NCBI GenBank assembly: GCA_015493505.1
Contig: WGDA01000145.1
Location: 1 to 36,928, forward strand
Reading direction: 5' to 3'
Length of the DNA stretch: 36,928 bases
Source: Pseudomonadota bacterium
GTDB taxonomy: Bacteria > Desulfobacterota > S145-22
Part shown: positions 17,225 through 34,635 of the stretch, one piece after another
Layout: the number at the start of each line of letters is the position of its first letter
Numbering within the stretch: the first letter of the stretch is position 1
Program-made: the position numbers and the translations under genes
The notes under the pieces: generated by a model
The model's database searches: none
What the model saw: the letters and a program-made list of their open reading frames with translations, nothing else
What the model was told of the DNA's origin: nothing

Positions 17225-17228
17225 CGTT

Positions 17229-18336: not shown

Positions 18337-19044
18337 TTAAATGCCCAGATAGGCGACGCGAACATCCTCGGAGTGTTTGATAGTGTCAGAGGTTCCTTCC
18401 GCCTTGATGGTTCCCTCGTGGAGGATATAGACGTATTTCGCCACCTCCAGGGTGATATCCACGTTCTGCTCGACCAGCAGTACCGTTAGCCCCATATCAC
18501 TCTGAACCTTTTGAATCGTTTCAAAGACTTCTCCCACGAGCTTGGGCGCCAGCCCCTGGCTGGGCTCATCCAGCATCAGGAACTTTGGCCGGGTCATCAG
18601 GGAACGGGCGATGGTCAGCATCTGCTGTTGTCCGCCGCTCAAGGTTCCGGCTTTTTGTCCCGGTCTTTCCTTCAGGATGGGAAACAAGGTATAAATCAGA
18701 TCCAGCGACTCTTTCATCAGCTTCGAGGCCCGCTTGGTATAGGCCCCCATCAGGATATTCTCCCGGACCGTCAGGTTTGGAAAGACATGCCTCCCTTCCG
18801 GGACGAGGGTCATGCCCATCTCGACCTTTTTATGGGAAGGTAAGGTTGTCACATCCTTGCCTTCAAAATAGATCTCACCGCCCCACGGCTTGATGGACCC
18901 AAGGGTTGACATCAGGGTGGTTGATTTCCCCGCGCCATTGGGGCCAAGCAGGGCGGTTACGTTCCCTTCTTCCGCATTCAGGCTGATTTTCCAGAGAACC
19001 TGCATGGGGCCATAGCCCGCTTCAAGATTGACAATCTTAAGCAT
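18337..19044 (-). CDS. livF: ABC transporter ATP-binding protein LivF (second system)
   Basis: HAAT ATPase of 235 residues. Walker A GPNGAGKST, signature LSGGQQQMLTIARSL, Walker B FLMLDEPSQGLAP and H-loop VEQNVDITL are visible. Its start overlaps the end of livG by 8 bases, with a GGAGGAACAG ribosome site inside the livG coding end. Last gene of the complete Liv operon. Confidence 0.94.
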   Translation of the reverse strand: MLKIVNLEAGYGPMQVLWKISLNAEEGNVTALLGPNGAGKSTTLMSTLGSIKPWGGEIYFEGKDVTTLPSHKKVEMGMTLVPEGRHVFPNLTVRENILMGAYTKRASKLMKESLDLIYTLFPILKERPGQKAGTLSGGQQQMLTIARSLMTRPKFLMLDEPSQGLAPKLVGEVFETIQKVQSDMGLTVLLVEQNVDITLEVAKYVYILHEGTIKAEGTSDTIKHSEDVRVAYLGI

Positions 19045-19789
19045 TCTGTTCCTCCAGGGCGAAACGCCCGAGATAGACGTCGATGACTTTCTGATCGTTC
19101 AGGGCTTCCTGGGTCGGGGCATCCGCTATTTTCTTGCCCTGGTTCATGACCACCACCCTTTCCGCGAAATTCACGACCGCCCGCATGATGTGTTCAACCA
19201 TGGAAACAATGGAGATTTTCTCTTCTTCGTGAATCTTATTGATGATTTCTACGATGCGGTCAATGTCCTTCGGATTCATGCCCGCCATGGCCTCGTCCAG
19301 CAGGACCAGCCGCGGCTTCATGGACAGGGCGCGCGCCACCTCCATCAGCTTTTTCTCGATGGGCGTCAGGGCGTTGGCAATCTCGTTCCGTTTCGGATAT
19401 AAACCGACCTTTTCCAGGTAATATTCGCCAATCTCCAACGCCTCATCTTCACCGATTTCACCAATCAAAGTGCCGAACAGCGCCCCGATCGCCACGTTTT
19501 CGCGGACCGTGATTTGTCCGAAGGGGCGGGGGATCTGAAAGGAACGTGCCAGGCCCAGGTGCGCCCGTTTGTATGCGGGCATGTTTGTGATGTCCAGCCC
19601 CTCAAGCAGAATACTCCCCTCATCACACGTGTAAACGCCGCTGATCAGGTTGTAGAGGGTAGTCTTGCCGCTCCCGTTTGTCCCGACAATCCCGAGGCGC
19701 TCACCCTCATTGATGACGAGGTCCACGTGGTCAACCGCCACGAGACCCCCAAATCTTTTGGTTACCCCTTTAAGCTCTAAAAGGCTCAT
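19037..19789 (-). CDS. livG: ABC transporter ATP-binding protein LivG (second system)
   Basis: HAAT ATPase of 250 residues. Walker A is GTNGSGKTT (Ser replaces the usual Ala), the signature region reads LTPIEKKLMEVARAL, which diverges from LSGGQ as is common in LivG, Walker B is LVLLDEAMAGM (Ala in place of the usual Pro after Glu), and the H-loop is VEHIMRAVV. It starts 8 bases after livM ends, with AGGAG upstream of the ATG. Confidence 0.93.
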   Translation of the reverse strand: MSLLELKGVTKRFGGLVAVDHVDLVINEGERLGIVGTNGSGKTTLYNLISGVYTCDEGSILLEGLDITNMPAYKRAHLGLARSFQIPRPFGQITVRENVAIGALFGTLIGEIGEDEALEIGEYYLEKVGLYPKRNEIANALTPIEKKLMEVARALSMKPRLVLLDEAMAGMNPKDIDRIVEIINKIHEEEKISIVSMVEHIMRAVVNFAERVVVMNQGKKIADAPTQEALNDQKVIDVYLGRFALEEQNA

Positions 19790-19797
19790 GGAAACTC

Positions 19798-20790
19798 CTA
19801 AGCAATGAATTTTTCCAGCTTTTTACCCCGAACACGCTTTTTAAGCACGCCAACAATTCCTTCCGGAAAGAGAATGATGATAATGATGATGAAGGGTGCC
19901 AGGATCAGCAGTTGAAACCCGGGCAGCAGGATTCCCAACCAGTATTTGAGGATACCGTAAATTAGTCCGCCAACCACGGGTCCCAGAAGGGTTCCCGTGC
20001 CGCCCATCATGACGATAACGATGGCGTCCACCGTGTAGGAGAGGGCGAAAACATCATCGGGGAAGACATAGGTCGTTTTAAGACACCAGGCTGTGGCACC
20101 GACCAGAGCGGCAAGGATGGAGCTGACCAGAAACGCGATATTTTTGTATTTTGTCGTATTGACACCCATCACCCGTGCCGCGTCTTCGTCTTCCCGAAGG
20201 GCGATCAACCCGTAACCGAGCCGCGTGTGAAGGAACACGATGGTGATAACGGCGGCAAGGATGGCAATCATGAAGACCAGAAAATCCGCCCAGAAGGTGG
20301 TTACGGCGTTGGCCAGATGGGGGCCGAGCGCGACTTTCAGGGGCTTTGAGATAATAATGCCCTCGGAACCTCCCCAGATCTTCGCGCCTTCGATAAAAAA
20401 TTTGACCCCCTGGTTCACACCGATGGTCGCGATGGCGAAATAGGCTCCCCGAAGCCGCAGGGCGATGGCCCCGACACCGGCCGCCAGGATTCCCGCCATG
20501 ATAGCCGCGAACAGGAAACCGGGGATCAGGATCCAGGGCCCCAGCCCCGCCATGGACGAGCTTGAAACGACGAGCGCCATGCCATAGGATCCCAGACCCA
20601 TGAAGACGACATATCCGAAATTTACATAGCCGGTGAATCCCAGGAAGACATTGAAGGCCTCGCCAACCGCCACATAGAACATGATCAGGGCGACAGGCTC
20701 CCACATTCCCTGGGCAAATTTGCCGAAGATGAACAAAACAAGGAATATGCCGATTGCAACAAAAAGTGGGTAGTATTTTCCTTTATTCAT
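19798..20790 (-). CDS. livM: ABC transporter permease LivM (second system)
   Basis: Inner-membrane permease of 330 residues. GFTGYVNFGYVVFMGLGSYG and LRLRGAYFAIATIGVNQGV are LivM signatures; MMGGTGTLLGPVVGGLIYG is the coupling loop. The C-terminus ends in a basic tail (KKRVRGKKLEKFIA). Its ATG overlaps the end of livH by 4 bases. Confidence 0.93.
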   Translation of the reverse strand: MNKGKYYPLFVAIGIFLVLFIFGKFAQGMWEPVALIMFYVAVGEAFNVFLGFTGYVNFGYVVFMGLGSYGMALVVSSSSMAGLGPWILIPGFLFAAIMAGILAAGVGAIALRLRGAYFAIATIGVNQGVKFFIEGAKIWGGSEGIIISKPLKVALGPHLANAVTTFWADFLVFMIAILAAVITIVFLHTRLGYGLIALREDEDAARVMGVNTTKYKNIAFLVSSILAALVGATAWCLKTTYVFPDDVFALSYTVDAIVIVMMGGTGTLLGPVVGGLIYGILKYWLGILLPGFQLLILAPFIIIIIILFPEGIVGVLKKRVRGKKLEKFIA

Positions 20791-21677
20791 TTTTTCCCCA
20801 ACAGACCTTCAGGTTTCAGTAACAGGAGGACCAGCAGAATGGCGAACGCCAGACACTGGGTCAGGCTGAACGGCTCCACGCCGGGGATCAGCCCCAGGAT
20901 CGCGTAGGACCCATTCTCAACCAGGCCGAAGATGAAACCGCCGAAAAAGGCGCCCCAGGGTGACGCCAGTCCCCCGAGGACGGCGATGACGAAGGCTTTG
21001 ATGGTGTAGACTTCACCCATGTATGGGTTGATCCCCACCGGCACGAACAGGGTGATGAACACGCCGCTCATCACGGTCAGGCCGATACCGATCGCGAAGC
21101 TCAGGGCGTAATACCCTTCCACGTTGATACCACACACCCGGGCACCTTCCTTATCCTCCACGACACCCCGAAGCGCGTTTCCCGCCCGCGTCTTTTTGAA
21201 CCAGAGATAGAGGGCGACAGCGATCACAATGCTTGAGAGGAGGGCATAAACCTTGGCCATCGGGATGGTGGTCACCCCCAGGTTGAGGCTTCCGACGTTC
21301 CAGCTGTATCCTCTGTAATCGGGGCCCCACACCGCCTTGGCCACTTCCGCGAGGAAGATTCCAATGGCAAATGTGGCCAGCAGGGTACTCAGTTCGGGAG
21401 CCTCCAGGAGCCATTTCATAACCACGTAATAGAAGAAGAATCCAAGGGCGATGCCCACAATCAGAGCCAGGATTGCGGAAAGCAGCGGCGGAAGGCCGAA
21501 AAGGGTAAACATCCAGTACGCGATGAAGGCACCAACCATGATGAATGCCCCATGCCCCACGTTGACAACTTTGAGCACGCCAAAGATGAGGCTCAGCCCC
21601 ATGGTCATCAGGCCGTAGACCGCGCCGAGAATGATCCCGTTGATGAGGTCTCCCGAAAACATTCTGAGAAATTCCAT
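20787..21677 (-). CDS. livH: ABC transporter permease LivH (second system)
   Basis: Inner-membrane permease of 296 residues. LKVVNVGHGAFIMVGAFIAYW is the N-terminal signature; AVLGGLASPWGAFFGGFIFG is the coupling loop. It is the first permease gene after livK, separated by 145 bases that contain a stem-loop (21789-21816), an arrangement that usually allows much more binding protein than permease. Confidence 0.93.
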   Translation of the reverse strand: MEFLRMFSGDLINGIILGAVYGLMTMGLSLIFGVLKVVNVGHGAFIMVGAFIAYWMFTLFGLPPLLSAILALIVGIALGFFFYYVVMKWLLEAPELSTLLATFAIGIFLAEVAKAVWGPDYRGYSWNVGSLNLGVTTIPMAKVYALLSSIVIAVALYLWFKKTRAGNALRGVVEDKEGARVCGINVEGYYALSFAIGIGLTVMSGVFITLFVPVGINPYMGEVYTIKAFVIAVLGGLASPWGAFFGGFIFGLVENGSYAILGLIPGVEPFSLTQCLAFAILLVLLLLKPEGLLGKK

Positions 21678-21788
21678 TCTTTTTATACCTCTTTGGGTCT
21701 CTTAAAAAATAAAATTGCTAACCATAAACTTTACAAAGGGCTATGCTGAAAAACTTCCTCCCCTTTTTATCGCTTGAGGCGGATGAAA

Positions 21789-21816
21789 ATCCCCCCAGCG
21801 CCAGGGCTGGGGGGAT
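21789..21816 (-). terminator. Stem-loop between livK and livH (partial terminator)
   Basis: ATCCCCCCAGC (21789-21799) pairs perfectly with GCTGGGGGGAT (21806-21816), loop 6 bases. On the minus strand the stem runs into ATTTTC only, so read-through to livH is expected. It lies 6 bases past the livK stop. Confidence 0.65.
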
Positions 21817-21822
21817 GTCAGG

Positions 21823-23112
21823 TTACTTGACGATGGCGAGTTTTCCAGCTTTTCTCTGCTTGATGGTCAGCATCGGATAGAAAGGTTTGCTGGTCTGAGC
21901 CGCAGGTGGCCAGACAATCTGGAGTTTTTTGCCCTGCCACTGCAGCACGACCATCTTGTGCGCGATCTGCATGCCGGTCTTCGGGTCGATTTTCCAGTCG
22001 CCGAAGAAGGTCATGAAGTGCAGTTTATTCATGACCTTGCGGACGACCTTCGGATCCAGGCTGTTGGCCGCGTCGATCGCCTTGACATAGGCGAGAAAGG
22101 CCGCGGCGGCTTCCGCGCCATGATAATCAGGTTTGACACCTTTGGACTCTTTCAGGAAATACTTCATGAATTCCTTCTGGGTGGGCCCGAAGTAGGGAAT
22201 GCCTTCCTTCTTGGCGGCCGCGGGGGAATATTTGGCTCCGATGCCCCACTGACCAGGCGCCATGTAGCTTTCGGCCATGGTTCCCAAGGCCTGGTAGAAG
22301 TTGGGCAGGGTTGGCGCGACCAGGATGGACACGAGCTTCAGATTGATTCCCATGTCATCGAGCTGTTTGGCCAGAAGCTGTCCGTCCGCGAAGTGGCCGC
22401 CGCCGATGAGAATGTCAGCCTTGGCGTTTTTCAGTTCCGTCAAAACCGGTGTCAGGTCACGGGCGGATTTGGGATAGGTCCGGTTGAAGACCACCTTGAA
22501 GCCCAGTTTTTTTGCCTTGGCCTCCGCTCCCTTGGCGACGGCACGGGCGAATTCATTGTCCTGGAACAGGAAGGCCACCCTCTTGGCGGAGGGATCAATT
22601 TTTTTAATCATTTCCAGGGGGCCCGTCTGATACTCGCTGGCGGGGGAAAGGGTCTGGACGATGAAGCTGAAGCCCTGTTCGAAGATGCGGTTACTGGCAC
22701 CACCATGAGAATTATAAAGGACGCCGTATTTTTCAACGATCGGAGCGGCGGCCAGGGTCAGGCCGGAGCTGTACGGGGCCAGCGTGAATTTGACCTTGTC
22801 CTTCGTGATCAGGCGTTCCATCAGGTTTGTCACGACCTCTTTCTTGGATTCGTCATCGTAATATTTATACGCGACGGGAATCTTCTTGCCCTTGATTTTT
22901 ACGCCGCCAAGGGTCGCGTTTACCCATTTTTCCATGGCCTTGATGCCCCAGACGCTCTGCTGGCCTTCCTTGGCAAACTTCCCGGACAAACTGATGGGGC
23001 CGCCAATCACCACTTTACCTGGCAGAGCCGCCATGGCTGAAAAGGAAAAGGGAAAAACCATGCATGCCGTGACCAACGCGATAAGAACAAGTTTCACTTT
23101 TCCACCTTTCAT
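21823..23112 (-). CDS. livK: Branched-chain amino acid-type ABC transporter substrate-binding protein (LivK-like)
   Basis: Exported binding protein of 429 residues. Residues 1-28 are a signal peptide (basic MKGGKVK, hydrophobic core, AMA cleavage site) with no lipobox, so it should be free in the periplasm. The mature protein begins with VVIGGPISLSGKFAKEG, the typical ligand-binding-1 loop of periplasmic-binding-fold type I. It is longer than E. coli LivJ/K (about 369), as is common for HAAT proteins with non-amino-acid ligands. A perfect AAGGAGGT ribosome site and its own promoter (23153-23181) support high expression. Its position downstream of the catabolic operon suggests that it may import that pathway's substrate; this is inference. 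Confidence 0.93.
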   Translation of the reverse strand: MKGGKVKLVLIALVTACMVFPFSFSAMAALPGKVVIGGPISLSGKFAKEGQQSVWGIKAMEKWVNATLGGVKIKGKKIPVAYKYYDDESKKEVVTNLMERLITKDKVKFTLAPYSSGLTLAAAPIVEKYGVLYNSHGGASNRIFEQGFSFIVQTLSPASEYQTGPLEMIKKIDPSAKRVAFLFQDNEFARAVAKGAEAKAKKLGFKVVFNRTYPKSARDLTPVLTELKNAKADILIGGGHFADGQLLAKQLDDMGINLKLVSILVAPTLPNFYQALGTMAESYMAPGQWGIGAKYSPAAAKKEGIPYFGPTQKEFMKYFLKESKGVKPDYHGAEAAAAFLAYVKAIDAANSLDPKVVRKVMNKLHFMTFFGDWKIDPKTGMQIAHKMVVLQWQGKKLQIVWPPAAQTSKPFYPMLTIKQRKAGKLAIVK

Positions 23113-23403: not shown

Positions 23404-24291
23404 TTACAGTGCGTCCAAATCCGTAAGGATCTGTCGGACCGCTTGGCGGCCTGCTTCATCCAGGTCGTGTTGGGGTGGAAGGGGAGGGCCTACGGGGAAG
23501 CCCTGCCATTCCAGGCCGACTTTCACGCAGGCCGCGAGGGAATATTTCTGAAAGGCCAGGTTGAGGGGCCACAGCTTTTTCTGTAAGGCCAGCGCCTCTT
23601 CCCATTTCCGTTGCCGGGCCAGTTCATAGAGGGCTATCGCCTGGTCCGGGATTATACAGGCGGGGCCTGCCATCCATCCGACCCCGCCGAGCATCATCAC
23701 GAAAACCGGGACATGGGCCGTCGCGCTGAAAACCTTCAGGCGGGATCCGAGCGTGGTGATGATACTCATCAGCTTGCCGATATTCCCGGAGGCGTCTTTC
23801 AGGTACCGGATGTTGGGTTCTTGCAAGAGCTCCCGCAAGGTGTCAAGGGTGAAATCCCATTGGGAAAAGCGGGGGTTGGTGTAGAGGACCACGGGGCAGG
23901 AAACGGCCCGGGCGACCGCGCGAAAGTGGGTGACGACTTCCTGGTCGCGCACGGGGAAATAGGTGGGGAGCACGATTAAAATGCCATCCACGCCGATGCG
24001 TTCCGTCTCGACGGCTTCATAGATCGCTCCCTTCGTCGTGAGGCTGGTTACGCCCGCGATGACGGGAACACGCCCCTCCGCCGCCTCGACCACGGTTTCT
24101 ATGACCGCCTTTTTGGTCGGCCAGTCCAGGTACGCGCCTTCCCCGGTGCTCCCGAGGGGCGTCAGGCCATGCACCCCCCGCGCGATGAGATGGCGCGTCA
24201 GAGTGCGTAAAACCTCTTTGTTGAGATGTCCCCCCGCATCGAGAGGCGTAACGAGATATGGAATAATGCCGTGAAATTCCTGCTTGTTCAC
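23404..24291 (-). CDS. DapA-family class I aldolase/lyase
   Basis: Schiff-base (beta/alpha)8 enzyme of 295 residues from the dihydrodipicolinate synthase/N-acetylneuraminate lyase family. GSTGEG (around residue 48) binds the pyruvate carboxylate, Tyr in VLYTNP and the Schiff-base Lys in YLKDASGN are present. The DapA-specific YNVPxRT loop reads YTNPRFSQ, so it is unlikely to be the lysine-pathway enzyme. A 2-oxo-acid aldolase such as 4-hydroxy-2-oxoglutarate aldolase is possible. Last gene of the ten-gene operon, one base after the iron-sulfur subunit gene. A link to pyruvate or glyoxylate released by the CitE-like lyase is inference. Confidence 0.85.
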   Translation of the reverse strand: MNKQEFHGIIPYLVTPLDAGGHLNKEVLRTLTRHLIARGVHGLTPLGSTGEGAYLDWPTKKAVIETVVEAAEGRVPVIAGVTSLTTKGAIYEAVETERIGVDGILIVLPTYFPVRDQEVVTHFRAVARAVSCPVVLYTNPRFSQWDFTLDTLRELLQEPNIRYLKDASGNIGKLMSIITTLGSRLKVFSATAHVPVFVMMLGGVGWMAGPACIIPDQAIALYELARQRKWEEALALQKKLWPLNLAFQKYSLAACVKVGLEWQGFPVGPPLPPQHDLDEAGRQAVRQILTDLDAL

Positions 24292-24292: not shown

Positions 24293-25069
24293 TCAGCCTC
24301 GCCTGGGGGGGTCCTTTCGGTTTTGCCGGGCGGACCGTTTTTTTTCTTCCGGTTTTGAGGCGTAGGCGCACGCCTTTGCCAGGGCGATAAAGTGGGCCAC
24401 GTCGATTTCCTTGGGACATACGAAGGAACACGCCTGGGAGGTGTGGCACCGGGGCAGTCCGTCTTCCCCGTAAAGGATGGCGGCCCTTTCGTGAAAATCC
24501 GTTTCCCGGGGGTCGAACAGGCGGACCGTCGCGGCCAAGATCGCGTTTGGCCCCAGAAATCCCCGGTGACTGCTGATACAGGCCTCCGCGCAACAAAAGC
24601 AGTTGATACACCGGGTCGCCTCCACGTATTGTTCCATCAGCCGCGGGGAAATCCTCTGTTCCCCTCCTTCCGGAGGCGGGGCGGCCGGTTCGATGATATA
24701 AGGTTTCGCCCGATTGACCCGTTCATAGGCCCGGGAGAGGTCCACGATGAGGTCGCGCAGGACGGGGGCGATATGGAGAGGCTGCAGGGTAAACGTATGC
24801 GTGCCGAATTGTGAGATGGCGTTTTGCACCAACAGCTCGCACAGCAGGAGGGGCTTGCCATTCACGAGCACGCTGCAACTGCCGCACTGGGCGTGTTCAC
24901 AGGAGGACATCCACGCCAGGCCGGGGTCCTGTTCCTGATTGATCTTCCTGAGGACATCCGTGAACCTCAGGACGCCGCCGACCTTGACATGATAGGTCTG
25001 TACCCAGGATTTTTTGCGATCCGGGTCGTACCGGTGAATCTTCAGGGTGATGGCGTGTAACGCTTCCAT
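24293..25069 (-). CDS. sdhB: Succinate dehydrogenase/fumarate reductase-type iron-sulfur subunit
   Basis: Electron-transfer subunit of 258 residues. The N-terminal plant-ferredoxin domain carries CEHAQCGSCSVLVNGKPLLLC for the [2Fe-2S] cluster. The C-terminal domain has CINCFCCAEAC and CHTSQACSFVCPKEID for the [4Fe-4S] and [3Fe-4S] clusters. It passes electrons from the flavoprotein to the membrane subunit. The C-terminal 20 residues are strongly basic (EEKKRSARQNRK). Its ATG overlaps the last base of the flavoprotein gene. The order C-A-B is that of Sdh/Frd operons. Whether succinate is the true substrate of this copy is uncertain. Confidence 0.92.
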   Translation of the reverse strand: MEALHAITLKIHRYDPDRKKSWVQTYHVKVGGVLRFTDVLRKINQEQDPGLAWMSSCEHAQCGSCSVLVNGKPLLLCELLVQNAISQFGTHTFTLQPLHIAPVLRDLIVDLSRAYERVNRAKPYIIEPAAPPPEGGEQRISPRLMEQYVEATRCINCFCCAEACISSHRGFLGPNAILAATVRLFDPRETDFHERAAILYGEDGLPRCHTSQACSFVCPKEIDVAHFIALAKACAYASKPEEKKRSARQNRKDPPRRG

Positions 25070-26877
25070 CAGTATTTCCTCGCGATAAAGTCAAAATATT
25101 TGGCATCCGGCCCCTGTTCCTTGAACAGGCTCATGTCGATGGGGCGTTTGCCGAACTCGACGCGCCCGTACTCCCGCATGGTGGCGAGGGTGTGGTAGTT
25201 GAAGTCGTCACGTCTCTCCGGATAGTCCTCACGGGTGTGGGCCCCCCGCGACTCCTTTCTGGCGCGGGCGCCCTGGGCGATGATCATGGCTACCATGAGG
25301 AGGTTGTCCAGCTCCCAGCGGTCGATCAGTTCCTGATTCATGACGAGAGAGGAGTGGGTCAGAGAGACGTGGCGGGACCGCTCATGAAATTCCATCAGGT
25401 GTTCAATGGCGTCGCTGAGATCTTTTTCATTCCGGAAGACGCCGACTTTCTCTGTCATCACATCCCGCATCGCCGTGCGGATATCCCAGAGGTTTTCCTT
25501 CCCCTTTGCCTCGAGATAGCCGGAAAACCGGGCGAAGGTCTTTTCCCCCGCGTCTCTCGGGGCCTTTTCGGGGAGGTCGATCTCCTTGATGGCATCCGCG
25601 GCGCGGGCGCCCACGACCTTGCCCATGGTGAACAGCTCCACGAGGGAGTTGGTGCCCAGCCGATTGAAGCCATGAAAACTGGCAGAGGCGGCCTCTCCCA
25701 CGGCATAAAGGCCTGGGATGATCTCGGTGGCGTTCTTTTGCGCTTCACCGAATTCGTCGGTGGGGATGCCCCCCATCTGATAGTGGACCGTCGGCCGGAC
25801 GGGGCACAATTCTTTTTTGGGATTGATTCCCGTGAACCTCGTGAAAAAGCTGGTGACCTCCGGGAGTTTGACATCGTGCACGTAGTCGGACAGGTGCCGG
25901 ATATCGAGCCAGACATGAGGCAGGTTGAAATGGGGATTGATCACGCCTCTCCCTTCACGGATTTCGGTTTCAATCGCCCGCGAAACCACGTCCCGGGGCG
26001 CGAGATCCTTTGCCTTTGGGGCGTACCGCTCCATGAAGGGCTCCAGGTCTTTGTTCAGGAGGATACCTCCTTCTCCCCTCAGGGCCTCACTCGCCAGGAT
26101 GCCCGGCCCCACGATTCCGGTGGGATGGAACTGCACGGCTTCCAGGTCCATAACCGGCAATCCCTCCTGCAACACGAGAGCCAGCCCGTCGCCCGTGTTC
26201 TGCCGGCAGTTCGTGGTAATCTTGTAAACCTGCCCGAAGCCTCCCGTGCTGATGATGGTCACCTTGGCGAGGACGGCCGTGAATTTCCCCTGGGGTTCCT
26301 CCAGGAGGACGGCACCGATACACCGGTTCCCCGCTATTATCAGTTCGGTCGCGATGCTCTGGTTGATGAAGGTGACGTTTCTCTTCAGGCTTTCCCCCCA
26401 GACGGTATCCATGATCCCCTTGCCCGTGCGGTCCGCCTCGAAGACCGCCCTGAACGCGTGGGGTCCCTTCCCGAAATTCAACGTGTGCCCGCCAAAGGTC
26501 CGCCGGCTCAGGCGGCCCTCTTCGTTGCGCGTGAAATGAAGGCCGTGCGCGTCCAGCCACAAGGTCTGTTCCCAGGCGGTTTCGACGATTTTTTTAATGA
26601 CATTCTGATCCGCGCTGCAGTCCGAGCCTTTCCAGGTATCGAACATGTGAAAAACGGGCTTGTCGTATGGATCCTCTGGGTTGACGGCGGCAAATCCCCC
26701 CTGGGCGGTGGTTGTATGGGACTTTTGAGGGCTGGAAACCTTTGTGACGGCGATGACGGAGGCGTCCGGAATCCTTGACAGGATTTCAACCGCGGTCCGC
26801 AGTCCGGCACCCCCCGCGCCGATGATGAGGGCGTCGCATCGCCTAATGACATCAATTCGCAGCTTTTTACTCATCAT
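25069..26877 (-). CDS. sdhA: Succinate dehydrogenase/fumarate reductase-like flavoprotein subunit
   Basis: FAD enzyme of 602 residues catalysing dicarboxylate oxidation or reduction. Visible: dinucleotide-binding GAGGAGLRTA, covalent-FAD His in SHTTTAQGG, active-site His in HPTGIVGPG, catalytic Arg in RDVVSRAI, substrate His in HYQMGGIPTDE and carboxylate Arg in HGFNRLGTNSL. Two differences from the usual enzyme stand out: TEGxRGEGG reads SEALRGEGG, and HGANRLGGNSL reads HGFNRLGTNSL. These flank the substrate pocket, so a substituted succinate is possible. It starts 8 bases after the membrane subunit gene. A housekeeping Sdh/Frd role cannot be excluded. Confidence 0.92.
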   Translation of the reverse strand: MMSKKLRIDVIRRCDALIIGAGGAGLRTAVEILSRIPDASVIAVTKVSSPQKSHTTTAQGGFAAVNPEDPYDKPVFHMFDTWKGSDCSADQNVIKKIVETAWEQTLWLDAHGLHFTRNEEGRLSRRTFGGHTLNFGKGPHAFRAVFEADRTGKGIMDTVWGESLKRNVTFINQSIATELIIAGNRCIGAVLLEEPQGKFTAVLAKVTIISTGGFGQVYKITTNCRQNTGDGLALVLQEGLPVMDLEAVQFHPTGIVGPGILASEALRGEGGILLNKDLEPFMERYAPKAKDLAPRDVVSRAIETEIREGRGVINPHFNLPHVWLDIRHLSDYVHDVKLPEVTSFFTRFTGINPKKELCPVRPTVHYQMGGIPTDEFGEAQKNATEIIPGLYAVGEAASASFHGFNRLGTNSLVELFTMGKVVGARAADAIKEIDLPEKAPRDAGEKTFARFSGYLEAKGKENLWDIRTAMRDVMTEKVGVFRNEKDLSDAIEHLMEFHERSRHVSLTHSSLVMNQELIDRWELDNLLMVAMIIAQGARARKESRGAHTREDYPERRDDFNYHTLATMREYGRVEFGKRPIDMSLFKEQGPDAKYFDFIARKY

Positions 26878-26885: not shown

Positions 26886-27731
26886 TTACGCGAGGTGAAA
26901 GGAAATTTTCAGGCCGATATATCCAAGAAAAATGGCAAGGAGAACGAGAATCAGCGCGAGGCCGCCCCGGAGGACGCGGTTCCTGGTGAAGTCCCCAAGG
27001 AAGGCGTATATCCCGTAGGCGGCGTGGTAGAGGACGAAAATCACGAGTACGGCATCCAGCAGCATGGCGGGAAGATGCCGCATCCGGCTGGCAATGAGGG
27101 AAACCTGGTGGCCGACGGCGTAACCCGTGTGCATGTACAACAGGTGGGCGGGAATCATGACGAAGAGAAAGGCGGCGGTGACCCTCTGCAGCTTCCAGAG
27201 GGGTGCGTTGGGGGTGTTCCAGATCTTCAGGAAGGCAAACACGCAGAAGATCGCGCTCATGGTGAAGACGGTCAGCCAGTAGAAGAGGGGGGAAACGGTT
27301 ACCCCGTCACCGGTCTCCAGAAAGAAGGCCATGAGAAACAGGTAGGCGCACCCGAAAATCAGTCCCCAGTGAAACATCTGACGGTCATCCCTCCAGCCGA
27401 AGCTTTCGTAGAGGATGAGCCTCGCCCCGTTCAGGGTGTGCAGAATCAGGGGAATTGCCAACAACCACGCGAAAAACCGGAAGATGATATGGTCATGGGT
27501 CACCCAAAGGGCCGTGAATCGGGTGGGTTCGGAAAGGAATGAAAGAATGTACAGATGAAACAGGAGGTAGGCAATCAGGATGAGCCCGGAGATACGATGG
27601 GCCCACGCCAGCACGAACCGCCACCCCCGTGTCCGCGCGTAACCGGAGATGACCGGAAGGGTTGGCGGAAAATTCAGGCCGCGACGGCCGGTGGCCCGTG
27701 GGACAGGGCGTTCAGAGTGTTCTGATGTCAT
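26886..27731 (-). CDS. sdhC: Cytochrome b-type membrane anchor, SdhC-SdhD-like fusion
   Basis: Membrane protein of 281 residues with about seven predicted helices. The first half looks like SdhC: AHRISGLILIAYLLFHLYIL, then LHTLNGARLILYE (compare the HLxNGxRH motif). The second half looks like SdhD: WKLQRVTAAFLFVMIPAHLLYMH, then LYHAAYGIYAFLGDF (compare QRxTA and the H-x-x-x-G-x-x-x-x-x-x-DY motif). Several His in these helices can ligate haem b. It anchors the SdhAB module and exchanges electrons with quinone. Its ATG overlaps the end of the regulator gene by 4 bases. The alternative is a B-type (diheme, single-subunit) anchor, but those usually have five helices and about 200-260 residues. 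Confidence 0.82.
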   Translation of the reverse strand: MTSEHSERPVPRATGRRGLNFPPTLPVISGYARTRGWRFVLAWAHRISGLILIAYLLFHLYILSFLSEPTRFTALWVTHDHIIFRFFAWLLAIPLILHTLNGARLILYESFGWRDDRQMFHWGLIFGCAYLFLMAFFLETGDGVTVSPLFYWLTVFTMSAIFCVFAFLKIWNTPNAPLWKLQRVTAAFLFVMIPAHLLYMHTGYAVGHQVSLIASRMRHLPAMLLDAVLVIFVLYHAAYGIYAFLGDFTRNRVLRGGLALILVLLAIFLGYIGLKISFHLA

Positions 27732-28465
27732 GGATGATTTCCCCCTTCGAGTTTTTCCATGGCGGACAGGAAAGGCTTCAGGGCCCGCTCGATGTGCTCC
27801 CGCACAACCCGTTCAATCTCTTCCGGGTTGGTGGAGCGGTCTTTGAAAAGCGTCACGATTCGACGGTGAATCGACAGGGAATACTCGAAATCTTCCTTGT
27901 AATACTGGCAGGTGTATCGGTGCCAGAGGGTGTGCATCCGCAAGGTGCGGAGGAGTGAGATCAGGATCTCGTTTTCCGACGCCGTGATGAAAATCTCATG
28001 AAAATAGTTATGGTGTTTGGCGTATTCTATGAAATCCCCCTTGCGGGCGGCCCGCTCCATCAGGGAATAGGCCTCCGGCAGCTCATCGATATCCGAGGCG
28101 GACAGGCGGGCGTGGGCAAACCTGGCGGCCAGGCCCTCCAGAACGGCGCGGACGGGGAAATTTTCCTCGATATCCTTCCGGGTGATTTTCCGGACAAAGG
28201 TTCCCCGTCTCGGCAGGATTTCCACCAGCCCTTCCTTTTCCAGCATCCGAAAGGCCTCTCTCAGGGGGGTCCTACTGACCCCGAATTCGCTTCTCAGCCC
28301 CTCTTCCAGGAGCTGTTCTCCCCCCTTGAGCGTGCCGGTCAGGATCTGTGCTCTCAAGTGCCGGGCGATCTGATCCGCCAGGCCAACGGGTTTGAACGCC
28401 TCGCCGGCTTCCTGGTCATTCCCGTAAAACAGGGGCGGGGCCGCCGGATTGGACGGTCTGTTCAT
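27728..28465 (-). CDS. GntR-family transcriptional regulator (FadR/FCD subfamily)
   Basis: DNA-binding regulator of 245 residues. A winged helix-turn-helix spans about residues 28-95 (LRAQILTGTLKGGEQL, then FGVSRTPLREAFRMLEKEGLVE and RRGTFVR). The helical FCD effector domain follows, with three metal-binding-type His (FHEIF, SIHRRI, REHIERA). FCD regulators commonly bind organic acids. The gene lies inside the operon it probably controls, overlapping neighbours by 4 bases on both sides. The perfect palindrome 33110-33133 at the operon promoter is the obvious candidate operator. Confidence 0.93.
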   Translation of the reverse strand: MNRPSNPAAPPLFYGNDQEAGEAFKPVGLADQIARHLRAQILTGTLKGGEQLLEEGLRSEFGVSRTPLREAFRMLEKEGLVEILPRRGTFVRKITRKDIEENFPVRAVLEGLAARFAHARLSASDIDELPEAYSLMERAARKGDFIEYAKHHNYFHEIFITASENEILISLLRTLRMHTLWHRYTCQYYKEDFEYSLSIHRRIVTLFKDRSTNPEEIERVVREHIERALKPFLSAMEKLEGGNHP

Positions 28466-29838
28466 CGCCCTGGTCTCCTCTCCGCGATTGCCTGAAAAAC
28501 GGAGGCGACATCATTAATTTTTTCCAGGTTCATGGCAATGTCGATGATATGGTTCTGTGTGTCGTCCGCGAGAACGCCGCCGCTGAGTTTCTTGAATTTC
28601 GTGATCAGTTCCGCTTCGGAAAGCGGATTTTCCGGATCACCCTTCGGGAAGTCACAGGATCCTTCGGCCCACTGGCCATTTTTCAACGTGATCCGGGTTC
28701 GGGAGGGCCATTTTTGTGGGTAGGCACGGGTCAGTTCGGAATCCTCCCGGATGCGGATACGGGGGAGAAGGCGCTGAATATCCGGATGGGACAGCCTCTC
28801 CTCCGTAAAGTCCTCGAGGTCCGCGTGCCCGAAGGCCACGGCCGTCGCGATGCAAAAGGGCAGGTTGAATTTGGCAAGATAAGGGGTCCGGGCCTCCACG
28901 TCTCCCAGCAGGTCGAGGGCCTCCTGGTAGATAGCCACCTCAATGGACTGAATATCCTGCACCCCTGCCGGGAGTCTCTTTCGTGCCACCAGGGCCGATT
29001 CGATGGCGGAGTGGGTGTGGCCGCACGAGGCATAAAATTTGAGAGAATTCCCCGCGGCGTGGAAGGTTTCACCCAGGCCGGCCGTGAGAATCTCCGGGTC
29101 GGGGGCTCGGGAGGTGGCGCGAAGGAAACCCTTTTCCCCTTCGAAAATGGTGCGCGCGCCGGTAAAGCCTTTCTGCGCGAGAAGCGCCGCCAGAAGGCCA
29201 TTCATGGAAGCCTTCCCGGGGTGGAGCTGTTTGCTCATGGCCCCATCCGTCAGGAATTCCCAGAGGCCGGCGCTTTGGGTTCCTGCCGATCCGAGGGCCC
29301 AGGTGAAGGGGGCCGGCCCCAGACCCATGACCTTCGCAGCGCCCGCGGCCGCGCCAAAGGTTCCGCAAGTCCCGGTCGTGTGCCAGAATTCGTAATGGCT
29401 TTTGCCGGCGGCGAGGGCCGCTCTGATCCCGACCTCGTATCCCGTCAGGATTCCGAGGATCAATGTCCGCCCGGAGGCGTGTTCCTTCTCTGAGGCGGAA
29501 AGAACCGCGGGAAGGATTGACGCGGCCGGATGCAGGATAGAGGGCCTGTGCAGGTCATCCATCTCGACCATGTGGGACGCGGCGCCGTTGACTAGGGCGG
29601 CGATGAGGGGGTAATGCCCGGTCATGGCGGGAAAAATCGTGGCGCCGCCACCGGGCATCTCTTCAGCGAGGGATACCATCATGCGAACAGGGGGGTGCTG
29701 GGACCCGGCAAAGGCGGATCCCAGCCAGTCGAGGAAAAAGGCCTTGAGGCGCGTGATCAGCGAAACCGGAAGGTCCTCGTACGCGAGGGGGCTGAAGTAT
29801 CGTGCCAGGGTTTCGGCGGCGGAAGGACGGGGAACCAT
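28462..29838 (-). CDS. MmgE/PrpD family protein
   Basis: Enzyme of 458 residues from the family containing 2-methylcitrate dehydratase, cis-aconitate decarboxylase and iminodisuccinate epimerase. The N-terminal helical domain carries MDDLHRPSILHPAA, WHTTGTCGTFGAAAGAA and KQLHPGKASMNGLLAA, the segments that hold catalytic Asp/His/Lys in this family; FYASCGHTHSAIES corresponds to the K-x-Y-x-x-C-x-x-x-H region. No cofactor motif is expected. The exact reaction is not determinable; hydration/dehydration of a small di- or tricarboxylate fits the CoA ligase and lyase beside it. It starts 3 bases after the ferredoxin gene and overlaps gntR by 4. Confidence 0.9.
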   Translation of the reverse strand: MVPRPSAAETLARYFSPLAYEDLPVSLITRLKAFFLDWLGSAFAGSQHPPVRMMVSLAEEMPGGGATIFPAMTGHYPLIAALVNGAASHMVEMDDLHRPSILHPAASILPAVLSASEKEHASGRTLILGILTGYEVGIRAALAAGKSHYEFWHTTGTCGTFGAAAGAAKVMGLGPAPFTWALGSAGTQSAGLWEFLTDGAMSKQLHPGKASMNGLLAALLAQKGFTGARTIFEGEKGFLRATSRAPDPEILTAGLGETFHAAGNSLKFYASCGHTHSAIESALVARKRLPAGVQDIQSIEVAIYQEALDLLGDVEARTPYLAKFNLPFCIATAVAFGHADLEDFTEERLSHPDIQRLLPRIRIREDSELTRAYPQKWPSRTRITLKNGQWAEGSCDFPKGDPENPLSEAELITKFKKLSGGVLADDTQNHIIDIAMNLEKINDVASVFQAIAERRPGR

Positions 29839-29841: not shown

Positions 29842-30060
29842 TCAATCCTCATAAAGTTTGTGGATTTGAATGGCCCGCGGGCCACAGTTTTGAAGGCAGA
29901 GCTCGCACAGGGTACACTCGTCTTCATTGGTTTCTGAAATTCCCGGGAGGGGGCTGCCGGGCTCGAAGATGTTGACCGGGCAGACCGTGACGCATTTCCC
30001 GCATTCCTCCGTCCCGGCGCAGAGATTGGGGTCGATTTCGATTTGAATAAATTCACTCAT
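29842..30060 (-). CDS. Small 2[4Fe-4S] ferredoxin
   Basis: Ferredoxin of 72 residues. The first cluster motif is widened: Cys14-x5-Cys20-x2-Cys23-x3-Cys27-Pro, instead of the usual C-x2-C-x2-C-x3-CP. The second is standard C-x2-C-x2-C-x3-C (CTLCELCLQNCGP). It overlaps the CitE-like gene by 4 bases and is followed by the PrpD-like gene, so it belongs to the catabolic operon, but no ferredoxin-dependent enzyme of the pathway is obvious from the neighbours. Confidence 0.9.
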   Translation of the reverse strand: MSEFIQIEIDPNLCAGTEECGKCVTVCPVNIFEPGSPLPGISETNEDECTLCELCLQNCGPRAIQIHKLYED

Positions 30061-30986
30061 GACACGTTTCCGTCCTGATGCGTTGAATCATGGTTGTCGG
30101 GCTTCATGAGGCCGATTTTTTCGGCCAGGGAAAGCAGCCGTTTCGCGCGGGTGACCACAGGGAGGTCGATAAAGAGGCCGTCCAGTTGGGCCGCGCCCGC
30201 GCCGCCCGATGTGATGATTTCAAAGGCGTCCACGATTTTCCTCGCCTTTGCGACTTCCTGGCTTGAGGGAGAAAAGATTCTGTTGCACGGTTCTATCTGC
30301 CGCGGATGCACGACAAGTTTTCCCTGAAATCCCAACCCCCTTGCCCGCGCGGCGTCACGGGTCAGGGCCTCTTCGTCGAAAAGGTCGATCATGAAAGGGG
30401 TATCGATGGGGGGAGCCAGGCCGGCGGCCCTGCACGCAATGGCAATCCGTGAACGCGGGTACAGGAGTTCAGCGCCCTCCCGGGTCATTTCGATTCCCAG
30501 GTCCAGGGTATAGTCCGCGGCGCCAAAGGCGGCCGTGTAACACCTGTCCGGCGTTGTGTGGATGGAGAGGATTTCATCGGCACACTGGACCGACGCCGCT
30601 GACTCGATGAGGGGAAGGACCAGAAAGTGCCCTTCCGGCAGCCCTTTTCCCCTTTCCACTTCAAGCAGAACCTGGTTGAACTGCTCCAGGTCCGCCCCCT
30701 TTTCAACCTTGGGAAGCATAAACCCTCTCACCTCCCTAAGGGCTGTTTCCATAATGTCTCCCTGAAAAAAGGGGGAGGGGAGGGGGTTGACGCGAATGAT
30801 AACCGTTCGGTCTTCAAAAAGGGGGGCTTTTTGCCGAATCGTTGCCCTAGCTTTCGCCTTTTCGGGGGGAGGGACCGAATCCTCCAGATCGATGATAATG
30901 GCGTCCGCCTCGGATCGCAGGGCCTTTTCCACGCGGTCAGGGCGGTTGGCCGGGACGAAAAGGGCGGTTCGTATCCAGAGTGCCAC
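30057..30986 (-). CDS. HpcH/HpaI aldolase / CitE-like acyl-CoA lyase
   Basis: TIM-barrel enzyme of 309 residues of the citrate lyase beta / malyl-CoA lyase / citramalyl-CoA lyase group. RTALFVPANRPDRVEKAL opens the barrel, DAIIIDLEDSVPP carries the conserved Asp-Glu-Asp, LPLIESA contains the Mg-binding Glu, and FGAADYTLDLG the second Mg-binding Asp. VHPRQIEPCNRIFSPS is the CoA-contact region. Stand-alone members cleave malyl-, citramalyl- or beta-methylmalyl-CoA. With CoA ligase subunits directly upstream, cleavage of a hydroxy-dicarboxylyl-CoA is the best guess. Confidence 0.9.
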   Translation of the reverse strand: MALWIRTALFVPANRPDRVEKALRSEADAIIIDLEDSVPPPEKAKARATIRQKAPLFEDRTVIIRVNPLPSPFFQGDIMETALREVRGFMLPKVEKGADLEQFNQVLLEVERGKGLPEGHFLVLPLIESAASVQCADEILSIHTTPDRCYTAAFGAADYTLDLGIEMTREGAELLYPRSRIAIACRAAGLAPPIDTPFMIDLFDEEALTRDAARARGLGFQGKLVVHPRQIEPCNRIFSPSSQEVAKARKIVDAFEIITSGGAGAAQLDGLFIDLPVVTRAKRLLSLAEKIGLMKPDNHDSTHQDGNVS

Positions 30987-30995: not shown

Positions 30996-31889
30996 CTACA
31001 GTATCCCTTTCAGGATAGTCACGATGTCATCCAGGCGCTCGGCCACATGGATCCCCGCCTCCCTGAAGCGGGCAATCTTGCCGGAGGTGGTTCCCTTGTT
31101 TCCTTCCACGATGGTCGCGGCGTGCCCGAACCGGATGCCCGGCATCTTGTCGACGAAGCGACCGGCGACAAACGCGACGATGGGGGTTTGAATGCCACGG
31201 GTGGCGACCATCTCGGCGAGTGTCTCCTCTATCACGCCTCCCGGCTCGCAAAAGAGCACGACCGCCTCGGTGCCGGGGTCTTCCTCGAATAACGGAATGA
31301 GATCGAGAAAATTTAACCCGACCACGGGGTCACCCCCCACACTGATACAGGTGCTTTGCCCGATGCCGTTCAGGGTCAGGAGATTGGCGATTTCCGTGGT
31401 CATTCCGCCGCTTCGGGACGCGATGGCGACGGTCCCGGGGGTGTAGGCGCTTTTGACATTCGCGACGGGCCCGCCTGCCATGCCGATCTTGACGACATGG
31501 GGATTGATCATGCCGAGGGTGTTGGGGCCGATGACGCGGGCGTCTTTCTCTCTGGCAAATTCCAGGATTTCCAGGGTGTCCCGGCGCGGCACGCGTTCCG
31601 CCACGAGGACCAGTAGCCGAATCCCGTGGCTCAGGGCCTCAATGGCCGCGTCCCGAACCCTGGTGGGAGGCACTGAAATAACGCTGGCATCCGCGCCGTG
31701 TTTTGTTACGGCCTCAAGTACCGTGTCGTAAACGGGAACGCCATAAACGCTCTGGCCTCCCTTACCCGGGGTCACCCCGGCGACCACCTTCGATCCATAA
31801 TCTATCATGTCGCGCGTAAACGCTACGGCCTCCCTGCCGGTAATTCCCTGGACAATGATTTTCGTGTTCGCGTCGGCTAAAATGGCCAT
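30996..31889 (-). CDS. Succinyl-CoA synthetase alpha-like subunit (possible malate/citramalate-CoA ligase)
   Basis: CoA-binding, phospho-His subunit of 297 residues of the SucD/MtkB family. ADANTKIIVQGITGREAVAF is the CoA-binding Rossmann start; GYP-like and IGPNTLGMINP segments follow; FGHAATIVEGNKGTTSGK contains the active-site His (compare MGHAGAIIAGGKGT in E. coli SucD). The start at 31889 is chosen because it begins the conserved fold and comes 10 bases after the beta-subunit stop; longer readings run through the beta-subunit gene. Family members activate succinate, malate, itaconate or citramalate; the CitE-like lyase next door favours a hydroxy-acid. Confidence 0.9.
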   Translation of the reverse strand: MAILADANTKIIVQGITGREAVAFTRDMIDYGSKVVAGVTPGKGGQSVYGVPVYDTVLEAVTKHGADASVISVPPTRVRDAAIEALSHGIRLLVLVAERVPRRDTLEILEFAREKDARVIGPNTLGMINPHVVKIGMAGGPVANVKSAYTPGTVAIASRSGGMTTEIANLLTLNGIGQSTCISVGGDPVVGLNFLDLIPLFEEDPGTEAVVLFCEPGGVIEETLAEMVATRGIQTPIVAFVAGRFVDKMPGIRFGHAATIVEGNKGTTSGKIARFREAGIHVAERLDDIVTILKGIL

Positions 31890-31899: not shown

Positions 31900-33090
31900 T
31901 CACAGATTTCCCCGTGTTTTTTCGACGGCAATCCGCGCCGCCTCGTCGATTGATACGGTTCTGTCACAATATTCCACACCGTATTTCCTGAGAATCTTGA
32001 AACCTTCCTCCTCCCAGGCGCCCGGAATTCTGAAGACGGCCAGGGTCTCGGAGGGAACTCTTCCCGATTCCAGAATACCCTTGATGACGCCACGGGCCAT
32101 GAGGTCCACCCGGGTATTGCTGACGATATTCATGATCACGGCGAGTTTCTCCACCCCCGGTTTTGAAAGGATTAGCTTGGTCAGTTCCTTGGTTTTCAGG
32201 ACGGAAGGATTGCCGCCAATCTCACAGTAGTTGGCGGGCCGCCCCTCATGCCGCAGCACGGCGTCAAACGCGGTCAGGGACGCGCCACCGCCCCCGATGA
32301 TAAGCCCCAGGTCCCCATCGAAAGCGATAAGCCTGCCCGCGACTCCGCGCTGATCAAGCCGGTCAATCTCCGCCGCCTTTTTTTCAAAATCCCCCTTTTC
32401 GGAGTGCCCCTTTTGCTGTTTCGACTTTTGGGACAGGCTGGCAAGAGTGGCATGCCTGAAGAGGGCGTCATCGTCCAGTTCCATGTGGCAATCCAGGGCG
32501 ATGACCTTTCCGTCCGCCGTCTGTGCCAGCGGGTTGATTTCGGCAATCGTGGCATCGTATCGCGTGAAAATAGCGGTTAGACGGGAAAGGGTGGCAGAGA
32601 GCCTGAGCAGAAGCCTTCCGCGTATCCCGCACTGGGAAATCATCTCCCGCGCCCTAAATTCCGGCAAGCCGGTTGAGGCCGGGAAGTGTCTTTTGAGGAC
32701 CGCGTTCGGGTTTTTTTTCGATGTTTCTTCGACTTCTATCCCGCCTTCCGTGGAAAAGATGGCGATGGGTTTCTTGGCCACCGTGTCAACCGTGATCCCC
32801 AGATAGAATTCCCGCGTGGTTTCCACGCGTTCCTCGATTAGCACGCTCTCAACGGGATGCCCGCGGACCTCACTGCTTAGCAGGCGCTGAAGGTGTGCCT
32901 CCGCTTCCTGTCGTGTCTGGACCTCGACGACCCCTCCCGCCTTCTGCCGGCCCCCGATGGGAACCTGCGCCTTTAAAACGGCTGGAAGCGGGAAAGAGGC
33001 ATGGCTCAAGTCAGAGACGAGAACGCTTGAAGGAATGGGAATGCCATTTTTAACCAGGATCTCCTTGGACTTATATTCAAGCAGCCGCAT
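31900..33090 (-). CDS. Succinyl-CoA synthetase beta-like subunit (ATP-grasp)
   Basis: ATP-grasp CoA ligase subunit of 396 residues, SucC/MtkA family. MRLLEYKSKEILVKNGIPIP is the canonical N-terminus, VPIGGRQKAGGV the nucleotide-binding loop, STEGGIEVEE and AEINPLAQTADG conserved; LIIGGGGASLTAFD and YCEIGGNPS are CoA-side loops. A charged insertion (SKQQKGHSEKGDFEKK) precedes the LIAFDGDLG segment and is absent from E. coli SucC. ATG 33090 is chosen because GGAAGGG lies 6 bases upstream; ATG 33093 immediately before it is equally in frame. First gene of the ten-gene operon. Confidence 0.9.
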   Translation of the reverse strand: MRLLEYKSKEILVKNGIPIPSSVLVSDLSHASFPLPAVLKAQVPIGGRQKAGGVVEVQTRQEAEAHLQRLLSSEVRGHPVESVLIEERVETTREFYLGITVDTVAKKPIAIFSTEGGIEVEETSKKNPNAVLKRHFPASTGLPEFRAREMISQCGIRGRLLLRLSATLSRLTAIFTRYDATIAEINPLAQTADGKVIALDCHMELDDDALFRHATLASLSQKSKQQKGHSEKGDFEKKAAEIDRLDQRGVAGRLIAFDGDLGLIIGGGGASLTAFDAVLRHEGRPANYCEIGGNPSVLKTKELTKLILSKPGVEKLAVIMNIVSNTRVDLMARGVIKGILESGRVPSETLAVFRIPGAWEEEGFKILRKYGVEYCDRTVSIDEAARIAVEKTRGNL

Positions 33091-33109
33091 CATGTTCCCT
33101 TCCATGTAA

Positions 33110-33133
33110 TTGTATATTGTCGACAATATACAA
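33110..33133. promoter_or_regulatory. Perfect 24-bp palindromic operator, probable GntR/FCD binding site
   Basis: TTGTATATTGTC (33110-33121) and GACAATATACAA (33122-33133) are exact reverse complements. The centre reads ATTGTCGACAAT, similar in style to TTGTATACAA-like sites of FCD-type GntR regulators. It covers the -10 box of the operon promoter, so repression is expected when bound. The matching regulator is probably the gene at 27728-28465 inside the same operon. Confidence 0.8.
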
Positions 33134-33151
33134 ACCAATCAAGTTTGTCAA
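33123..33151 (-). promoter_or_regulatory. Promoter of the catabolic operon
   Basis: On the minus strand TTGACA (33151-33146), 17-base spacer, TATTGT (33128-33123). The -35 is perfect and the -10 matches 4 of 6; transcription would start inside or at the edge of the palindrome, about 20-25 bases before the first start codon. Confidence 0.65.
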
Positions 33152-33270
33152 GGGGAAAAGCCCAACCCCGCGTCTCAGGCCACCATGGGTGCCTATGCCT
33201 TGACATCCATCCCCCCGGAGTGATAGGCAGGGGCGGAAAAGGAAATCGAAGGGAACGGGACAAGAAAAAT

Positions 33271-34635
33271 ATGCATCCACTGTACGGGGATCTGAAAGAG
33301 ATATTCACGGCGGCCATTCGCGCCGTTGACCCTTACCGGGCGGTTAAAACGGCGATGACATTCGACGGAGCGACGCTCACAATCAGGAAAGGGGTCTTTC
33401 AGGCCCTCTATCCAGGTAAATATCAAGCCCTTACACACGATTTCTCAAAGGGAGCACTCTTTGTCGTAGGCGCCGGAAAGGCGGCGTCAAAAATGGCCCT
33501 CGCCACGGAAGAAATCTTTGGAGAGACCATAACGGAAGGGGTTATCGTCACCAAATACGGGTACACTGCCCCATTGAAGAAGATCCGCCAGATTGAGGCG
33601 GGACACCCGGTGCCGGATCAGCAGGGACTTGAAGGCGCGAAAGAGATCGAAACCCTGCTGCGGGAATCCGGCCCCGACGATCTCGTGCTGGTCCTGATTT
33701 CCGGAGGTGGATCCGCCCTGCTTGTCTCGCCCGCTGAAGGGCTTTCTCTGGAAGACAAACAGAAGGTCACCAGCCTTCTCCTCTCTTCCGGGGCCACCAT
33801 CCAGGAAATGAACGCGGTCAGAAAACACCTGTCCAGAATCAAGGGGGGACGCCTGGCAAAGATGGCCGCACCCGCCCGCGTGGTCACCCTGATCCTTTCA
33901 GACGTCATCGGCGACGACCTTTCTTCCATCGCCTCCGGGCCGACCGCCCCGGATGACACCTCTTATCAAGACGCCCTGGATATTCTTTCCTCTTACGATC
34001 TGACAGATCAGGTGCCGCCGGACGTCCTGACGCACCTTCGGAAAGGAGCTGAGGGACAGCTTGAAGAAACACCGGCCAGCCAGGATCCCCTGTTCGACAA
34101 AGTCTTCTACCGCTTTATCGGTTCGAACCAGATCGCCCTGGACGCCGCCGCGGGCAAGGCAAGGGAGTTGGGATATCAGCCCCTGATCCTCACCCATGGC
34201 GCCTGCGGGGAGGCGCGCGAGATTGCCAAATATTTCGCGGCAATTGCCAAGCAACTGGTTTCCTCTGAACAGCCCATCACGCCACCCGCCTGTATCCTCT
34301 CGGGGGGAGAGCCGACGGTGACGTTAAGGGGAAACGGAAAGGGAGGCAGAAACCAGGAATTCGCCCTCGCGGCCGGGTTTGAGATCGAGAGGATCGAGGA
34401 CCTGGTCATCGCCAGCGTGGGAACGGACGGCACGGATGGCCCCACGGATGCCGCGGGTGGTTTCACGGATGGGAACATGATGGCCCTGGCACGAAAGAAC
34501 CACCTCGACGCGCGGAAACACCTCACGCAAAACAATGCCTATCCCTTCCTCGAACGCCTGGGTTACCTGATTAAAACGGGTCCAACAGGAACCAACGTGA
34601 TGGATATTCAGATCATTCTCTGCAAAAAATCATAA
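33271..34635 (+). CDS. Glycerate 2-kinase (MOFRL / DUF4147 family)
   Basis: Kinase of 454 residues that phosphorylates D-glycerate to 2-phosphoglycerate with ATP. FVVGAGKAASKMALATEEIFG (around residue 65), EAGHPVPDQQGLEGA, LISGGGSALLVSPAEGL, VRKHLSRIKGGRLA, then the C-terminal MOFRL-type LSGGEPTVTLRGNGKGGRNQEFAL and SVGTDGTDGPTDAAGG are all present. ATG 33271 (MHPLYGDLKEI) is preferred over earlier in-frame codons because the conserved fold starts there and GGGAACGGGA precedes it. It is divergent from the catabolic operon, 180 bases away. Its product fits assimilation of glyoxylate-derived glycerate, which would suit a malyl-CoA-type cleavage; this is inference. Confidence 0.92.
   Translation: MHPLYGDLKEIFTAAIRAVDPYRAVKTAMTFDGATLTIRKGVFQALYPGKYQALTHDFSKGALFVVGAGKAASKMALATEEIFGETITEGVIVTKYGYTAPLKKIRQIEAGHPVPDQQGLEGAKEIETLLRESGPDDLVLVLISGGGSALLVSPAEGLSLEDKQKVTSLLLSSGATIQEMNAVRKHLSRIKGGRLAKMAAPARVVTLILSDVIGDDLSSIASGPTAPDDTSYQDALDILSSYDLTDQVPPDVLTHLRKGAEGQLEETPASQDPLFDKVFYRFIGSNQIALDAAAGKARELGYQPLILTHGACGEAREIAKYFAAIAKQLVSSEQPITPPACILSGGEPTVTLRGNGKGGRNQEFALAAGFEIERIEDLVIASVGTDGTDGPTDAAGGFTDGNMMALARKNHLDARKHLTQNNAYPFLERLGYLIKTGPTGTNVMDIQIILCKKS

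Follow-up and report, generated by a model that had tools for sequence, protein, structure and literature searches.

The DNA analysed here, referred to as the window, is a stretch of 36,928 nucleotides in which a minus-strand operon led by an mtkA-like gene faces a plus strand carrying glycerate 2-kinase (gck), QueD-like and FolE2-like genes. The divergent gap that separates mtkA and gck is 177 bp long and contains a perfect, gapless palindrome. The relevant features are listed below.

33271..34635, plus strand: glycerate 2-kinase gene gck (DUF4147/MOFRL), judged to lie outside the regulon
33200..33227, plus strand: gck upstream element TTGACAT...GTGATAG, beyond the palindrome, common to the gck orthologues of genomes G002-G005
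33146..33151, minus strand: -35 box TTGACA; 15 of 18 relatives have a TTGACA-like box 17-21 nt before their core
33123..33128, minus strand: -10 box TATTGT, a promoter match that overlaps the predicted operator core, inside the palindrome
33110..33133, no strand: 24-bp palindrome TTGTATATTGTCGACAATATACAA, found in full at this one place in the genome
33116..33127, no strand: predicted operator core ATTGTCGACAAT, 12 bp, TTGT-CG-ACAA, identified by a footprint in 18 orthologous clusters and by identity to the PrpR motif
31900..33093, minus strand: mtkA-like gene, succinate/malate-CoA ligase beta subunit (ATP-grasp), first gene of the operon
30996..31889, minus strand: mtkB-like gene, succinate/malate-CoA ligase alpha subunit
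30057..30986, minus strand: CitE/malyl-CoA lyase-type C-C lyase (HpcH/HpaI)
28462..29838, minus strand: MmgE/PrpD-family (de)hydratase, overlapping the start of the regulator gene by 4 nt
27728..28465, minus strand: GntR/FCD regulator (fcd), the predicted operator binder, with Pfam GntR and FCD domains and the near structures PmiR (7xp0/7xp1) and VanR
26886..27731, minus strand: SdhC-like membrane cytochrome b subunit
25069..26877, minus strand: SdhA/FrdA-like flavoprotein
24293..25069, minus strand: SdhB/FrdB-like iron-sulfur subunit
23404..24291, minus strand: DHDPS-superfamily aldolase/dehydratase (dapA-like), kept in the cluster in locus L081 and in G002
18337..23112, minus strand: LivKHMGF-type ABC transporter, with the same gene order in L081

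Within the operon, the mmgE/fcd, fcd/sdhC and sdhA/sdhB pairs overlap or abut, as in one transcript, and the widest spaces between genes measure 218 bp (before mmgE) and 291 bp (before livK). No second operator site was found in either of these gaps; the 218-bp gap could hold a second promoter. The Liv transporter is probably part of the mtkA-cluster unit or of an adjacent one. Two Liv-type branched-chain ABC transporter sets (14848-18197 and 18337-23112) are arranged tail to tail in a span of 9 kb, and one of the two comes after the regulated operon. The operon enzymes do not reach the curated cut-offs set for malate-CoA ligase and RipC, and because these families fall below substrate-specific cut-offs the substrate stays inferred; a plausible one is a substituted succinate or a C5-C6 di- or tricarboxylate, which would be oxidised, hydrated, CoA-activated and cleaved.

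The preliminary description of this DNA had reported a 24-bp palindrome of two exact reverse-complement 12-base arms, overlapping the TATTGT of a TTGACA promoter, in front of an operon that encodes a GntR/FCD regulator. The sequence at 33110-33133 is exactly so, with two 12-nt arms that are 100% complementary and a spacer of 0 nt. Gapless palindromes with 12-bp arms are expected about 0.0016 times per window (~0.002), and arms of at least 12 bp arose in one of 150 first-order Markov shuffles. In length, TTGTATATTGTCGACAATATACAA ranks second among the gapless palindromes of the window. The longest, AAAAAAGGCCAGGAGATCTCCTGGCCTTTTTT (7716-7747; 16-nt arms), has an ODP-family flavoprotein-like gene on one side and a convergent gene for an aromatic amino acid lyase on the other, and looks like a bidirectional intrinsic terminator. 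The promoter is likewise present, being the best match of the region: on the minus strand (33151-33123), TTGACA (33151-33146) is followed after a 17-nt spacer by TATTGT (33128-33123). The -10 box thus falls under the palindrome, as does the probable transcription start of the mtkA operon, whose first coding sequence starts at 33093 after a leader of ~20 nt with the ribosome-binding site GGAAGGG.

The regulator is likewise encoded in the operon, as its fifth gene (27728-28465), and its product matches PF00392 (73 bits) and PF07729 (69 bits), both over the cut-off (Pfam). Its best PDB sequence match is 7xp0, and a fold search with its AlphaFold model (mean pLDDT 80.5) matched PmiR, VanR and TM0439. 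The entries 7xp0 and 7xp1 are named PmiR, and we take PmiR and PrpR both to be PA0797. In the fold search the regulator was 27-28% identical to PmiR, the nearest solved sequence, but the value is comparable to that for other FCD proteins. Four histidines of the FCD domain (H152, H156, H200, H224) are invariant across 19 orthologues, and related FCD proteins usually carry Asp where this regulator has the first of them (H152). It is possible, from this pattern, that the four form an all-His metal site.

The DNA code of this protein can be compared with that of the FadR subfamily, for which the consensus is TKGT/ACMA with a spacing of 2 or 3 nt (PMC4494728). The core TTGT-CG-ACAA, with its 2-nt spacing, is an AT-rich palindrome of this type, in which GT and AC stand 2-3 nt apart. 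Position 28 of the helix-turn-helix domain is mostly Arg in the subfamily and prefers G, giving TGGT (PMC4494728). The regulator has E at position 28, P at 40, and R replacing G at 59, and under the published correlations a residue other than Arg at 28 together with Pro at 40 would favour TTGT rather than TGGT (PMC4494728). All 18 relatives examined keep the contact residues R38, P40, R42, E43 and P58, and almost all keep R59. The genome also encodes a paralogue that carries Arg at position 28, and upstream of that paralogue's gene stands TGGTATTACCA.

Relatives were collected by scanning GTDB genomes with a profile of the regulator, which yielded 80 loci; the best 21 of these, at 45-72% identity, come nearly all from MAGs named Deltaproteobacteria, Thermodesulfobacteriota or sulfate-reducer groups. 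The preliminary description had proposed phylogenetic footprinting of the palindrome, with its absence in front of orthologous operons as a refuting outcome; this analysis instead found the core kept upstream of the first cluster gene in 18 further clusters (the same-genus genome G002 and 17 loci). It is exact in eight (L060, L081, L091-L094, L097, L099), has one mismatch in six (L082, L084, L086-L089), and has two in four (L080, L083, L090, L095), these last being chosen as the best site near the gene. Some of the relatives are possibly non-independent (L092/L093, L091/L097, L087/L089). The single apparent exception is L085, where the upstream DNA is complete and no good core site was found; in L079, L096 and L098 the relevant upstream DNA or the cluster is absent. 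The position of the core tracks the start of the cluster, whichever gene leads it (mtkA, mmgE, fcd or sdhC). Shuffles of the 324 kb of orthologue DNA gave 0 exact and 0.7 one-mismatch matches, and a control set of 1.07 Mb, drawn from the surroundings of 59 more distantly related FCD genes, gave 0 exact and three one-mismatch matches, all at one locus. The FCD gene is the sole regulator seen in all the clusters that carry the core; its presence in each of them is partly by construction, since the FCD protein was the search query.

Two further observations concern the distribution of the site and the operon. TTGACAATTGTCGACAATCG stands right at the start of a less related FCD gene (L053 3787; 33% identity), and the same core may thus serve a wider group of FCD regulators. 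The other genomes of the genus and family that were examined (G001, G003-G005) have neither an mtkA orthologue (best matches 32-34%) nor a close FCD orthologue, which points to a patchy distribution of the operon.

Conservation around the core also bears on how much of the palindrome is used. A box with at least five of six matches to TTGACA precedes the core by 17-21 nt in 15 of the 18 relatives, against a background of 3.8%, so the operator would typically overlap the -10/+1 region. Relatives agree with TTGTAT in the outer left arm at 3.8 of six positions (background 1.7) and with the outer right arm at 2.1 of six (background 1.6), a value that 2% of resamples reach. One could suppose that the full 24 bp is the operator, bound cooperatively by two overlapping dimers, one on the core and one on the outer TTGT/ACAA half-sites, since FadR-type sites are statistically enriched in additional half-sites at 7-12 nt from their centre (PMC4494728), the range in which these outer boxes fall, and since the left arm is conserved. 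This is rather unlikely: the conservation of the left arm is explained by its coincidence with the -10 region, the right arm scarcely exceeds its background, and no relative retains palindromic outer arms. Even in G002, whose mtkA is 72% identical and is preceded by ATTGTCGACAATAT, the outer arms are non-palindromic. The entire 24 bp is rejected as a conserved unit, and on the simplest reading the left arm represents the -10 region and the symmetry of the right arm is confined to this genome. Extra half-sites may still make some contribution, boxes at this distance being a published feature of GntR sites (PMC4494728). As judged from the sequence comparison, the functional unit is the central 12 bp of TTGTATATTGTCGACAATATACAA, and the 24-bp perfection is peculiar to this genome.

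The preliminary description had also looked to further copies in the genome, whose genes might disclose the substrate. Besides the one full 24-bp copy, the only other exact match to TATTGTNNACAATA is ATATATTGTACACAATATCGG (C135:2777), which lies between uppS and a lipoprotein-like gene, beside a tRNA-like stretch; its centre is unlike the core and it is probably a chance match. One-mismatch core matches on contigs C103, C169, C124 and C139 were rejected as operators, all lying within coding sequence (those on C153, C168 and C171 were left out), as was an exact core match within coding sequence on C229 of G002. The near-matches examined were thus coding or chance-like; a single operator was found in this genome, and co-regulated genes do not reveal the substrate. 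The regulator is probably a local, single-operon switch.

Control of gck by the same site had been proposed as well, such that one FCD dimer at the palindrome would serve both the mtkA operon and gck. The location in the divergent gap would suit such an arrangement, and in FadR-type divergons a lone site usually controls the genes in both directions (PMC4494728). However, no operator (at most three mismatches, 400 bp upstream) was found at the gck orthologues of G002-G005, which instead have their own TTGACAT...GTGATA/GATAGT-type element upstream of the start codon; the copy in the window lies ~70 bp before gck and ~70 bp beyond the palindrome. The -10 part of this element, which five genomes of the family share, is far from consensus, so that it could be either an unusual promoter or a site for another factor. 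Furthermore, G002 retains the operator though its divergent gene is not gck, which is located elsewhere, and gck adjoins the cluster in none of the loci L079-L099. Nor is the palindrome centred, as the sites of published single-site divergons are (PMC4494728): 28 bp separate its midpoint from mtkA, and 149 bp from gck. Orthologues that lack the operator, an element of their own and an off-centre site together make shared control very unlikely.

Even if the core serves the mtkA operon, the FCD protein could act there as an activator or dual regulator, or another transcription factor of the genome could use the site; the genome encodes six FCD proteins, and the function assigned to this one derives from its sequence. 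Such an arrangement is most improbable. The -10/+1 position is typical of repression, ATTGTCGACAAT was not found within two mismatches at the loci of the five remaining FCD genes, hardly any copies of the motif occur near more distantly related FCD genes, and this FCD gene is the only regulator common to all the clusters. Palindromes are able to form hairpins, but a non-protein site (a hairpin in the transcript, a terminator, or a palindrome that arose by chance in AT-rich promoter DNA) is scarcely conceivable, and a hairpin or terminator is rejected, since transcripts from the operon promoter would start inside the palindrome and include just one arm, there is no loop or T-tract, the terminator scan does not pick the palindrome, a chance origin has an expectation of ~0.002 per window, and the conserved core of the footprint contradicts it.

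What is very probable, in our judgement, is that ATTGTCGACAAT serves as the operator for the GntR/FCD protein that the operon encodes (27728-28465), and that this protein would keep the operon, its own gene included, repressed until released by a carboxylic-acid intermediate. This reading draws on the sequence, the promoter overlap, the conservation, the genomic uniqueness, the operon geometry and the match to a published FCD-repressor motif. A single promoter would drive mtkAB-citE-mmgE-fcd-sdhCAB(-dapA-liv); an FCD dimer on the core would mask its start site and the greater part of its -10 box, and so keep RNA polymerase from opening it. As fcd lies within the operon, the protein would limit its own synthesis. 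The autoregulation suggested in the preliminary description fits this geometry, the regulator being cotranscribed downstream of its predicted operator, and fcd stands first behind the core in four relatives (L080, L082, L086, L099). A carboxylic acid of the pathway, either substrate or intermediate, would then bind the FCD domain, the dimer would leave and the operon would be induced. We infer binding by the FCD protein, repression and an effector from these features, repression rather than activation from the position of the site, and substrate-induced derepression by analogy at the level of the family. The enzyme set hints that the likeliest effector class might be a succinate-like C5/C6 di- or tricarboxylate, such as methylsuccinate, mesaconate or citramalate.

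The closest known counterpart is PrpR of Pseudomonas aeruginosa, a GntR/FCD repressor of the propionate (prp) operon that binds upstream of itself by EMSA (PMC9765439). The 12-bp core agrees in every letter with the motif published for PrpR, which lies upstream of the prp operon (PMC9765439). In both systems a GntR/FCD protein is cotranscribed with a PrpD-family gene, and PmiR is among the closest solved structures; the regulator here is, however, just 27-28% identical, and its operon lacks the methylcitrate-cycle genes prpB and prpC and has instead mtkAB, a CitE-type lyase, mmgE/prpD-like, sdhCAB and dapA-like genes. Autoregulated catabolic operons of the FadR subfamily share the TKGT/ACMA site with 2-nt spacing (GntR, HpxS, HypR, MdcY, PrpR, UxuR; PMC4494728), whereas here the regulator gene lies mid-operon and the exact core and gene set are, within the scope of the search, specific to this Desulfobacterota lineage. 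Itaconate/methylsuccinate and serine-cycle gene sets are similar in leading from CoA activation to a C-C lyase, as in the citramalyl-CoA and malyl-CoA pathways (general background; PMC12290011); they differ in that the operon here adds to these steps a membrane SDH/FRD-like complex and an enzyme of the MmgE/PrpD type. A literature search found no paper on this exact gene set.

The regulatory mechanism itself is ordinary, being a standard bacterial switch. What the analysis provides is a specific predicted operator-regulator pair for an uncharacterised carboxylic-acid operon of uncultured Deltaproteobacteria, and the operator can be used to delimit this operon in other genomes. Tentatively, and with less confidence than in the operator, it might mark an undescribed Desulfobacterota regulon in which the SDH/FRD-like complex would oxidise a substituted succinate, an MmgE/PrpD-type enzyme would hydrate it, an MtkAB-type ligase would add CoA and a CitE-type lyase would split it, under an FCD repressor that shares the PrpR DNA code. 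Independently of that reading, the operator has the exact DNA code of the gamma-proteobacterial propionate repressor, which here recurs with a different enzyme set.
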